Of a DNA stretch of 47,719 bases, positions 28,727 through 41,436 are shown in pieces. Under the pieces are notes generated by a model. The model ran no database searches. It was not told where the DNA came from and saw only the letters and a program-made list of their open reading frames with translations. The position numbers were made by a program, and so were the translations under genes. The stretch spans positions 1-47,719 of the forward strand of contig PLGM01000401.1 of assembly GCA_003139795.1 (NCBI GenBank), written 5' to 3'. Every line of letters starts with the position of its first letter. The first letter of the stretch is position 1. This stretch comes from Acidobacteriaceae bacterium (lineage in GTDB: Bacteria; Acidobacteriota; Terriglobia; Terriglobales; Acidobacteriaceae).

Positions 28727-28752
28727 ACAGGGATCAGGAATCAGGGATCAGG
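28727..28752. repeat. CAGGGAT-type heptamer repeat, copy 1
   Basis: Tandem near-copies of the heptamer (CAGGGAT, CAGGAAT, CAGGGAT, CAGG) lie upstream of cysS. The same motif family recurs near 29438, 30775, 38591, 39594 and 41335, always at gene ends or between genes. Confidence 0.6.
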
Positions 28753-29570: not shown

Positions 29571-29594
29571 GGAGACCTGCGCTCAGGATGACAT
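29571..29594 (+). repeat. CTCAGGATGACA element, short copy
   Basis: The sequence around GACCTGCGCTCAGGATGACA shares its right half (GCTCAGGATGACA) with 32851-32867 inside cca. There the left part is expanded by a CGGCTCGCTCCGCTCGCT run. Such strings recur in acidobacterial intergenic DNA as far as recalled; only two copies are in this window. Confidence 0.45.
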
Positions 29595-29656: not shown

Positions 29657-29714
29657 GGGTATCCCACCCTAGCCGCAAAAATCCGCCGCGGCGGACGGCG
29701 AGGATGGGGCACCC
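29657..29714. repeat. Palindromic intergenic element, copy 1
   Basis: The 58-base element has imperfect terminal inverted repeats (GGGTATCCCACCCTAGCC against the complement of GGCGAGGATGGGGCACCC, 14 of 18 matching). It has a central perfect 14-bp palindrome TCCGCCGCGGCGGA at 29682-29695. A second copy lies at 32707-32766 inside cca. No open transposase is attached. Confidence 0.65.
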
Positions 29715-32187: not shown

Positions 32188-32278
32188 GGGGCGTGGGCGA
32201 GGGAGCGATTGTGGTTTCCCGCTCTTTTGGAGGATGAAACGGAAAGGAAGGGGCGCAGGGTGTTGTGGGCGAGAGAGA

Positions 32279-33865
32279 ATGAGTGGAGATATGTTGACGG
32301 GAACGGGACAGTTCGATGCGGCGCTGCAGGTGGTGGAGAGGCTGCGGGCGGCGGGGTATGAGGCGTACCTGGCGGGGGGATGCGTGCGGGACCTGCTGCT
32401 GGGACGGGAGCCGAAGGATTATGACGTGGCGACGAACGCGACGCCGGAGGTGGTGCTGGGGCTGTTCGAGAGGACGTTTGCGGTGGGGGCGCACTTTGGG
32501 GTGGTGCTGGTCGCGGACGGCGACGGGGAGGGTTATGTGGTGACGGAGGTGGCGACGTTCCGGTCGGATGGGGCTTATTCGGATGGGCGGCATCCGGATG
32601 CAGTGCGGTATACGAAGAGCGCCGAGGAGGATGTGAGAAGGCGGGATTTCACGATCAATGGGCTGCTGCTGGATCCGGAACGGCTTTTCCCTCAGGGGCT
32701 TGAGGGGGCAACCCACCCTAGCCTCAAAGAGTCGCCGCGGCGACACGTGGCGAGGGTGGGGCACCCAAATTTCCAATCGCAAGCCGAATTCCAAGACGCG
32801 GGTTCCCATCCGCACACAGAAGAGCAGCCGCAGGTCCTTCGGCTCGCTCCGCTCGCTCAGGATGACAGTCCTCTATTAGCCGCGCAGTATTTCAGATTGA
32901 GCGCAACCCAACAGAAGCTGCGCTCGGCGGTGATTGATTTTGTGGGCGGGGTTGGGGATTTGGATGCGGGGGTTGTGAGGGCGATCGGGAGGGCGGAGGA
33001 GCGGTTCGAGGAGGATCACCTGAGGATGCTCAGGGGGGTACGGTTCGCGGCGCGGTTTGGATTTGAACTGGAGGCGGGGACGAAGGCCGCGGTGCTGGGG
33101 CTGGCGGGCAGGATCGGGGCGGTGAGCAGGGAGCGGGTCAGGGACGAGCTGACAAAGATGCTGACGGAGGGGCGGGCGCGGAGGGCGTTCGAGCTGCTGG
33201 ATGAGACGGGGCTGCTGAAGGAGGTGCTGCTCGAGGTGGCGCGGATGAAGGGGGTGGAGCAGCCGGCGCAGTTTCATCCGGAGGGGGATGTGTGGGTGCA
33301 TACTTTGCTGCTGCTGGGGCAACTGGAGGCGGGATGCTCGCTGACCCTGGCATGGGGAGCGCTGCTGCACGATGTGGGCAAGCCGCCGACGTTTCGAATG
33401 GCTCCGGACCGGATTCGGTTCGACGGGCACGTGGAGGTGGGCGCGGCGATGGGGGCGGAGATTTGCAGGCGGTTCCGGTTTTCGAATGAGGAGACGCGGC
33501 AGATTGTGGCGCTGATCGGGAACCATATGCGGTTTGCGGATGCGGGGCGGATGAAAGCTTCGACGCTGAAGCGGTTTTTCCGGCTCCCGGGGTTTGAGGA
33601 GCACTTGGCGCTGCACCGGATGGATTGCCTGGCGGCGAGCGGGAACCTGGAGCACTGGGAGCTTGTGCGGGAGCGGTGGCTGGCGATGCCGGAGGAGGCG
33701 GTGCGGCCGCGGCCGCTGATTTCGGGGCGGGAGTTGATTGCGGCGGGGTACGTGCCAGGGGCGGGATTCAAGGAGATGCTCAGGGCGGTTGAAGATGCGC
33801 AACTGGAGGGGACGATCGGGACTCCGGAAGAGGCGTTGCGGCTGGTGAAGGAACGGTACGACTGA
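32279..33865 (+). CDS. cca: CCA tRNA nucleotidyltransferase with repeat-derived insertion
   Basis: The ATG at 32279 gives 528 residues; ATGs at 32234 and 32291 are possible. The head domain has AYLAGGCVRDLLLGREPKDY followed by DVATNATPE, with the catalytic GG and DXD region, and RRRDFTINGLLLDP. The neck follows as EERFEEDHLRMLRGVRFAAR. A C-terminal HD domain holds HTLLLLGQLEAG and ALLHDVGKPPTF. The enzyme adds or repairs the CCA end of tRNAs. Between the RRRDFTINGLLLDP and FVGGVGDLDAGVVRAIG blocks lie about 80 extra residues (about 138-217) of unusual composition, encoded partly by intergenic-type repeats at 32707-32766 and 32830-32867. The frame is kept, so the enzyme may still work. Confidence 0.9.
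   Translation: MSGDMLTGTGQFDAALQVVERLRAAGYEAYLAGGCVRDLLLGREPKDYDVATNATPEVVLGLFERTFAVGAHFGVVLVADGDGEGYVVTEVATFRSDGAYSDGRHPDAVRYTKSAEEDVRRRDFTINGLLLDPERLFPQGLEGATHPSLKESPRRHVARVGHPNFQSQAEFQDAGSHPHTEEQPQVLRLAPLAQDDSPLLAAQYFRLSATQQKLRSAVIDFVGGVGDLDAGVVRAIGRAEERFEEDHLRMLRGVRFAARFGFELEAGTKAAVLGLAGRIGAVSRERVRDELTKMLTEGRARRAFELLDETGLLKEVLLEVARMKGVEQPAQFHPEGDVWVHTLLLLGQLEAGCSLTLAWGALLHDVGKPPTFRMAPDRIRFDGHVEVGAAMGAEICRRFRFSNEETRQIVALIGNHMRFADAGRMKASTLKRFFRLPGFEEHLALHRMDCLAASGNLEHWELVRERWLAMPEEAVRPRPLISGRELIAAGYVPGAGFKEMLRAVEDAQLEGTIGTPEEALRLVKERYD
32707..32766. repeat. Palindromic element, copy 2, inside cca
   Basis: The ends read GGGCAACCCACCCTAGCC and GGCGAGGGTGGGGCACCC, 14 of 18 positions complementary. 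The centre is a perfect 14-bp palindrome GTCGCCGCGGCGAC at 32731-32744. It matches copy 1 (29657-29714) across both ends and the centre, and is translated in frame as part of CCA nucleotidyltransferase. Confidence 0.65.
32830..32867 (+). repeat. CTCAGGATGACA element, long copy, inside cca
   Basis: GCAGGTCCTTCGGCTCGCTC runs into CGCTCGCTCAGGATGACA. It resembles a class of short repeats seen between acidobacterial genes and matches the shorter copy near 29571. It is translated in frame within cca. Confidence 0.5.
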
Positions 33866-38590: not shown

Positions 38591-38616
38591 GCAGGGAACA
38601 GGGAATAGGGAACAGC
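38591..38616. repeat. CAGGGAA-type heptamer repeat, copy 3
   Basis: Three and a half tandem copies (CAGGGAA, CAGGGAA, TAGGGAA, CAG) start 3 bases after the stop of the flavoprotein gene. Confidence 0.65.
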
Positions 38617-39528: not shown

Positions 39529-39593
39529 AGAGAGCATTGTAGCGAAGCTGCGGGCGCGCGGTGTGAGAGACAGTTATCAGTTTTGGGTGGTGA

Positions 39594-39630
39594 GGGGCCA
39601 GGGACCAGGGACCAGGGACCAGGGAACAGC
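39594..39630. repeat. CAGGGAC-type heptamer repeat, copy 4
   Basis: Four tandem heptamers (CAGGGAC three times, then CAGGGAA) follow GGGGC between the two cysteine-cluster paralogs and abut the stop codon of the second. This is the most regular copy in the window. Confidence 0.7.
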
Positions 39631-41334: not shown

Positions 41335-41436
41335 AAGACAGGGAACAGGGGACGGGGATCAGTCGTCAGGGGTCAGTGACCTGTCATCTGCCATCTGCTC
41401 CCTATTTCCTGTTTCCTATCCCGTATTCCCTGTCTT
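41335..41436. repeat. CAGGGA-type repeat, copy 5, with terminal inverted repeats
   Basis: AAGACAGGGAA (41335-41345) and its exact complement TTCCCTGTCTT (41426-41436) bracket about 80 bases. The left interior carries CAGGGGAC and GGTCAG units; the right interior carries inverted TTTCCTG and TATCCCG units. The unit lies between the divergent genes at 41292 and 41484. Confidence 0.6.

Follow-up and report, generated by a model that had tools for sequence, protein, structure and literature searches.

A single loop of the cca gene appears to have been colonised repeatedly, and in frame, by different families of dispersed repeats in Acidobacteriaceae, and intergenic repeats would in this way become stretches of protein. 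The window (the whole 47,719-nt stretch of DNA analysed, contig PLGM01000401.1) holds a cca gene for which the initial annotation had reported an extra block of repeat DNA. This block was confirmed, and the finding was extended to relatives and to other genes.

The expanded loop of cca and its repeats

The features of the window on which the analysis rests are the following.

32276..33865 (+): cca, class II tRNA nucleotidyltransferase; 529 aa if translation starts with the ATG at 32276, a further in-frame ATG lying at 32234
32678..32923 (+): expanded loop, codons 135-216, 82 aa, largely repeat DNA; 8 codons in the closest empty relatives
32684..32700 (+): remnant of E3 (TTCCCTCAGGGG type), 17 bases matching the start of family E3 at 94%, E 0.004
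32706..32770 (+): E1, imperfect palindrome CCCACCC...GGGTGGGGCACCC, with matches in the genome; single-strand minimum free energy -36.0 kcal/mol (RNA parameters)
32819..32872 (+): E2 (CAGGATGACA element), with CTCAGGATGACA at 32856-32867 and matches in the genome
29657..29714 (+): E1 copy, intergenic, between ORFs resembling a cysteinyl-tRNA synthetase and a methyltransferase (identities assigned by eye)
29582..29593 (+): 12-base E2 core (CTCAGGATGACA)

CCA enzymes finish the ends of tRNAs. The reading frame of the window cca is intact, and its product matches the Pfam families PolyA_pol (PF01743, E 1e-30), PolyA_pol_RNAbd (PF12627) and HD (PF01966). A PDB search with this protein returned CCA-adding enzymes (E 2e-45), which were also the best Foldseek matches of its predicted fold. 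The head and RNA-binding domains and the modelled fold are those of a class II tRNA nucleotidyltransferase, for which the addition of CCA, as opposed to CC or A, is a prediction only. The NCBIfam score of the protein (231.5) is below the curated cut-off of 290. Because two relatives with an empty loop fall below it too (235.5 and 230.2), the insert is not the reason for the low score, and this explanation was dropped. Another protein of the same genome (L314:366-2711, -, 782 aa) also has a class II nucleotidyltransferase head domain and weakly resembles A-adding tRNA nucleotidyltransferases.

The loop starts after ...TINGLLLDP (P134) and ends before S217AVIDFVGG, in the head domain of the enzyme. 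When the insertion limits were set by alignment with relatives, the 82 codons stood against 8 in the closest empty ones (L045 and L080), a net increase by 74 aa (222 bp); in the solved enzyme 6ibp the site is occupied by five residues (160-164, read from the alignment). The initial annotation had counted about 80 extra residues between two conserved blocks that normally stand close together in CCA enzymes, and both statements hold: the anchors are 114 residues apart here and 34-54 in uninserted named relatives, a spacing which means that the same residues are not present in relatives at many taxonomic distances. The palindrome that had been placed at 32707-32766 and matched to 29657 corresponds to E1, which is 82% identical to the 29657-29714 copy over 61 bases in one comparison and 84% over 37 bases in another. 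The copy of the second element claimed at 29571 was upheld in part. The E2 family itself is real, but only its 12-base core lies there, at 29582-29593, a match that a BLAST search at E 1e-3 missed. Longer E3 elements occupy the same loop in two relatives (L042 and L058). For the loop segments 32771-32818 (48 bases) and 32873-32923 (51 bases) no repeat match was found in the stretches searched. Dispersed repeats of the CAGGGAACAGGGA/CAGGGATCAGGAA type (families D2, D3 and D15) were also observed in the window, at 28728-28752, 38592-38616, 39592-39630 and 41339-41384.

The enzyme remains under purifying selection. Over alignable codons, dN and dS were 0.082 and 0.41 between the window cca and the empty L045, 0.063 and 0.58 between L044 and L080, and 0.073 and 1.15 between L043 and L078; dN/dS was 0.06-0.22 in eight pairs, in seven of which one or both genes were filled; four of these seven compared a filled with an empty gene. 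In an AlphaFold2 model built with 70 sequences the mean pLDDT was 89.7, and residues 154-194 were below 50. The insert would not be wholly disordered, since a helix modelled at 199-218 (pLDDT about 60-80 at its start) joins its end; every ten-residue block past 210 reached a pLDDT of at least 95. Half of the insert is predicted to be disordered, and the remaining fold is predicted with confidence. The suggestion of a new loop near the active-site head was correct as to the head domain but not as to newness: the loop is an existing turn between two short strands that was enlarged several times. That intergenic-type repeats lie within cca without breaking the frame is borne out by the existence of empty relatives, the dispersal of the elements and the purifying selection on the enzyme, and the interpretation first given to the block is supported.

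To follow both elements through the source genome (6.3 Mb, 412 contigs, 4.56% contamination) and count their coding copies, as the initial annotation had proposed, we searched it with 32690-32930. Among 124 candidates 40 places were scored, 39 of them non-self: 27 of the palindrome (E1) type and 12 of the CAGGATGACA (E2) type, one of which (C376) was not recovered in a later BLAST check of the loci. Matches extended over 55-57 bases at 91-93% identity, the best non-self match having 93% identity and an E value of 7e-17. In the BLAST check, which covered 34 loci and the window, 30 of 39 non-self E1/E2 matches had no frame open for 60 codons on both sides; the other nine, the 29657 copy and eight matches at seven loci, lay in frames open for at least 60 codons both ways. 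E1 and E2 are dispersed repeats, and most of their copies are located outside long open frames.

The families recur beyond the source genome. Of 59 same-genus genomes, 46 contain a common 16-base form of the E2 end, which has 12 copies in the source genome, and the reversed-letter control was absent from all 59; the E2 copy in the window cca differs from this form in the first two bases and is outside those 12. E1 was present, at least in part, in 26 of the 59 genomes, many of the matches covering only an arm of 21-26 bases. E3 was scored at 40-44 places per genome in six relatives, and E4, which is related to E3 in the opposite orientation, at 17-45 places per genome in four. The dispersal of the palindrome E6 (see below) was looked at in the genome of L120 only.

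The same loop in relatives

Usable cca genes were obtained from 46 of the 59 same-genus genomes (source included) and amounted to 48 loci; nine of the other 13 genomes gave no match and four gave fragments or weak matches only. The loop was 28-82 aa long at 16 loci and 8-21 aa at 32. At all 48 loci the gap was a multiple of three with no stop codon, and both halves of the gene were in one frame. Five element queries were compared by BLAST with 18 filled loops (the 16 loci together with L084 and L120), and elements were recognised in 16 of them. Three of these loops (L009, L042 and L066) were the source of the E1/E2, E3 and E4 queries and match by construction, which leaves 13 of the 15 others; L046 had supplied the E5 query, and some other loop matches were weak (E 0.001-0.009).

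E1 occurred in the loops of L009, L046, L054 and L063, and as a 14-base core in L040; E2 in L009, L040, L041, L044, L047 and L084; and E3 or E4 in L009, L039, L041-L044, L058, L066, L069, L081 and L084. The candidate repeat family E5 was present in L039, L046 and L054, in the last two within or beside E1, as further or nested elements. One of the two loops missed by the BLAST queries (L048) contains, by eye, a decayed E1, and the other, from the isolate Acidicapsa dinghuensis (L120), has 21 other matches in its own genome, 14 of them to the palindrome half. Tandem repeats were seen in the loops of L042 and L043, and an LFPQG-like loop start is common to L009, L041, L042, L044, L048 and L058. 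Compared with the uninserted L010, insertions of at least 8 aa inside the enzyme were confined to reference positions 81 and 135-144, C-terminal tails apart. The turn at position 81 has 38 and 28 extra residues in the sister rows L054 and L058, and 19 in L045.

Two assemblies held two different cca loci each, G152 (L039 and L080, one filled and one empty) and G183 (L058 and L081), perhaps owing to strain mixture or contamination. A same-genus genome that is 97% complete (G199) gave no cca match at E 1e-3. The nearest named relatives include Acidobacteriaceae metagenome-assembled genomes (MAGs) from bog and fen, and the wider set of records comes from bogs, fens and soils.

The independence of the insertions was assessed on a tree of 61 CCA proteins from whose alignment the loop had been left out; L061 (anchor pattern missed), L019 (no protein cut) and L081 (not put in) are not part of it. 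Presence or absence of the insert changed 10 times on this tree, in comparison to an average of 15 with shuffled labels, and the starred branches alone force at least six changes. Sister rows differed in state (filled L043 against empty L078, and filled L044 against empty L080) or in content (E1 plus E5 in L054 and E3 in L058). To judge from these proteins, the tree shows that the same turn was filled several times independently. The events are unevenly spread, because 11 of the 17 filled rows belong to one clade of 18 rows; those outside it are L040, L041, L043, L063, L084 and L120. As the tree cannot separate gain from loss, this clustering and the shared LFPQG-like start imply that some inserts may have arisen by replacement inside an old E3 insert.

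Repeats within other genes

Copies of E1 and E2 were examined in 34 loci and in the window. Seven proteins encoded by long open frames over these elements were tested, and three of them had Pfam domains flanking or spanning the element: aspartate carbamoyltransferase (pyrB, E2), an HpnG-like phosphorylase (E1) and the Lhr helicase (E1). The other four frames, which lacked a Pfam match, were regarded as shadow frames. The tally of E1/E2 coding inserts does not include two further frames, in L183 and L174, or the long minus-strand frame over the 29657 copy. In the source genome, cca, the phosphorylase gene and lhr share a single reading frame of E1 (.HPS.KN...ARVG.P). Two of the four matches of the cca protein in its own genome consisted of the E1 peptide alone (C25 and C297); caution is needed, as repeat-derived peptides can pass for protein similarity.

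For E3, 30 loci of 42 matches were examined, and at five a long open frame ran over the element. Domains were found on both sides of it in uvrC, hemW, rarA and an Fe-S/CCG oxidoreductase of the source genome; at the fifth locus, purF, it lies only ahead of the conserved region. The N-terminal stretches before purF (L286) and a ribonucleotide reductase (L268) were not counted, their start codons being uncertain. Three proteins could be set against solved structures: residues 268 to 387 of RarA correspond to 223 to 235 of 3pvs, 528 to 586 of UvrC to 79 to 77 of 3c65, and 191 to 225 of PyrB to 143 to 144 of 3r7d; the structure alignment of HemW ends at residue 298, ahead of the insert. Elements in frame inside conserved genes with empty homologues were thus found in cca, pyrB and the HpnG-like phosphorylase, and for RarA, UvrC and PyrB by comparison with structures. 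The uvrC gene (L288:513-2720, +) has two separate in-frame E3-type stretches, one of which falls in the RNase H endonuclease domain, with about 58 extra residues relative to 3c65. In rarA (L313:628-2415, +) about 107 extra residues relative to 3pvs, with E3-type repeats, separate the AAA and C-terminal domains.

The linker loop of pyrB (L174:1469-2626, -, and L202-L210) was observed as a second recurrent site. Of 30 loci, 20 had a loop of 14 residues and nine a loop of 30-52, with 23 residues in the remaining one. The E2 end, reversed with respect to cca, was present in L202, L203, L206, L208 and L209, in two reading phases; no copy was seen in the loops of L205 and L207, and L210 has, by eye, the palindrome E6 (CCAGGTC...GACCTGG). 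The phosphorylase loop, read in 26 loci, had 10-18 residues in 21 and 27-57 in five, and inspection by eye placed E1 in L232 and L233, an E4-like element in L235 and E6 in L236, and left the loop of L234 unassigned. These counts refer to the 30 best loci of each search, which favours query-like loops, and the pattern was unmatched in 4 of the 30 phosphorylase loci. Each of the filled pyrB loops (L202-L210), the 23-residue loop of L211 and the filled phosphorylase loops (L232-L236) lies in one open frame extending at least 113 codons before and at least 141 codons after the motif used; the single-TGA flags of some matches fall outside the loops.

Origin of the inserts and comparison with known systems

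Taken together, the sequences make it very probable that small dispersed repeats became stacked in a tolerant turn of the head domain of the CCA enzyme through insertion filtered by selection, and that they are translated, as the open frame suggests. The elements would be inserted into this turn by a process without choice of frame, and selection would follow. Insertions that break the gene would be lost, and those that are in frame, free of stops and in exposed turns would persist as nearly neutral flexible loops. A loop once enlarged could then accept further or nested elements, such as the three in the window cca. Coding adaptation of E1 was rejected, because 18 E1 copies were open in 4.17 of the six frames in comparison to 4.76 in shuffles.

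The source genome contains three Y1 transposase (Y1_Tnp) loci. Near them, no match to E1 or E2 had an E value below 0.05, only a 15-base E3-like stretch being seen in L200, and RAYT-driven mobility of E1 is unsupported at these three loci (of which L201 is the end of a contig). A Y1 (RAYT-like) transposase gene at L200:2216-2950 lies amid its own hairpin repeats (GGGGCCTTCAGGCCCC type), the form of which is similar to that of the E3 hairpins. No target-site duplication was recognised by eye between filled and empty cca loops.

The explanation that competes most seriously with repeated insertion, although we regard it as unlikely, is a single ancestral insertion followed by divergence, deletion in some lineages and overwriting by gene conversion from intergenic copies. 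The LFPQG-like start of six loops and the concentration of 11 of the 17 filled rows in one clade are in its favour, and part of the variety may indeed be replacement in an old E3 insert. However, the starred branches demand their six or more changes, six filled rows lie outside the clade, and E2 is read in two phases in pyrB. Recruitment of the insert for a function, such as enzyme regulation or tRNA contact, would fit with its presence in many species and its freedom from stops, but is improbable: different families occupy the same place and the predicted order of residues 154-194 is low, so there is little common content for selection to keep.

Growth of an ordinary length-variable loop by slippage, with the likeness to repeats arising by convergence of GC-rich palindromes, has a very small probability. 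It could draw on the tandem repeats of L042 and L043 and on the range of 8-21 aa even among the 32 short loci, yet it does not account for genome matches of 55-57 bases with E values down to 7e-17, for a 16-base E2 family core without control matches, or for different families in different relatives. As the sole cause it was rejected on the dispersed matches of E1, E2, E3 and E4. Hardly any weight can be given to contigs misjoined at repeats during assembly or binning, even though the source genome is fragmented into 412 contigs with 4.56% contamination and most relatives are MAGs. Misjoins would not preserve the frame in 48 of 48 loci, both flanks come from one gene, and filled loops are present in the isolate A. 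dinghuensis and in two assemblies, G153 and G158, that have about 20 contigs; frame retention and the isolate led us to reject a chimera.

Repeated insertion into a tolerant turn resembles several known systems. Rickettsia palindromic elements (RPE) are dispersed palindromes that occur intergenically and also, in frame, within conserved genes unrelated to one another, and the RPE-bearing gmk enzyme was shown to be translated and active (PMC10969869, PMC2229807); according to the reference list of PMC2229807, translated palindromes in Rickettsia were first reported in 2000. The Acidobacteriaceae elements, too, are dispersed repeats within and between genes, E1 and E2 both being present outside genes, a likeness of description. 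However, the present elements belong to another phylum with bog, fen and soil sources and to several families at once, and the same loops of the same genes are filled by different families, with nested elements. Wolbachia protein-coding palindromic repeats are reportedly translated inside genes as well, whereas their host is an endosymbiont of another phylum.

REPs of the GTAG and CGTC families occur inside ORFs of Opitutus terrae, Thauera, Xanthomonas (recB) and others, and many of the REP-bearing ORFs described are DNA synthesis or repair genes, the excinuclease ABC proteins, uvrA and uvrB being named (PMC3733652). E1 is likewise a short palindrome within ORFs, but the ends of its 18 aligned copies have, by eye, no GTAG or CGTC tag, and unlike REPs with their RAYT (REPtron), E1 and E2 are not beside a Y1 transposase in the source genome. 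Different REPs are reported at about the same site in recB of X. campestris and X. oryzae (PMC3733652), so the filling of a shared site has a precedent. In the sections of that source bearing on them, Acidobacteria are mentioned for tyrosine transposases only. Intragenic MITEs (ERIC, YPAL and others) are small non-autonomous elements that form in-frame fusions (PMC10969869, PMC2229807), as do the small elements described here, E1 being an imperfect palindrome; MITEs have terminal inverted repeats with target-site duplication, and by eye no such duplication was recognised between filled and empty cca loops. No report of in-frame repeats in Acidobacteriota genes was found in the open-access literature searched. 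The features that look new are the host phylum, the multiplicity of families and the recurrent occupation of particular loops in three genes.

On balance, surface loops in Acidobacteriaceae probably capture non-coding repeats across the proteome as an ongoing process that yields new protein sequence, in which several families would re-colonise loops of core enzymes (cca, pyrB and the HpnG-like phosphorylase) and also sit in genes for DNA repair and other housekeeping tasks (uvrC, rarA, lhr and hemW). If the repeats do keep re-colonising the same loops, close relatives could be compared as natural replicate insertion experiments. The translated palindromes of Rickettsia could be taken for a quirk of reduced intracellular genomes, and the same kind is seen here in bacteria from soil and peat whose genomes span several megabases. 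At one loop these bacteria offer a comparative set of empty sites, several families, different reading phases and nested elements. It should therefore be testable whether the inserts are neutral passengers, how new protein segments originate from non-coding DNA, and which loops tolerate 20-80 extra residues.
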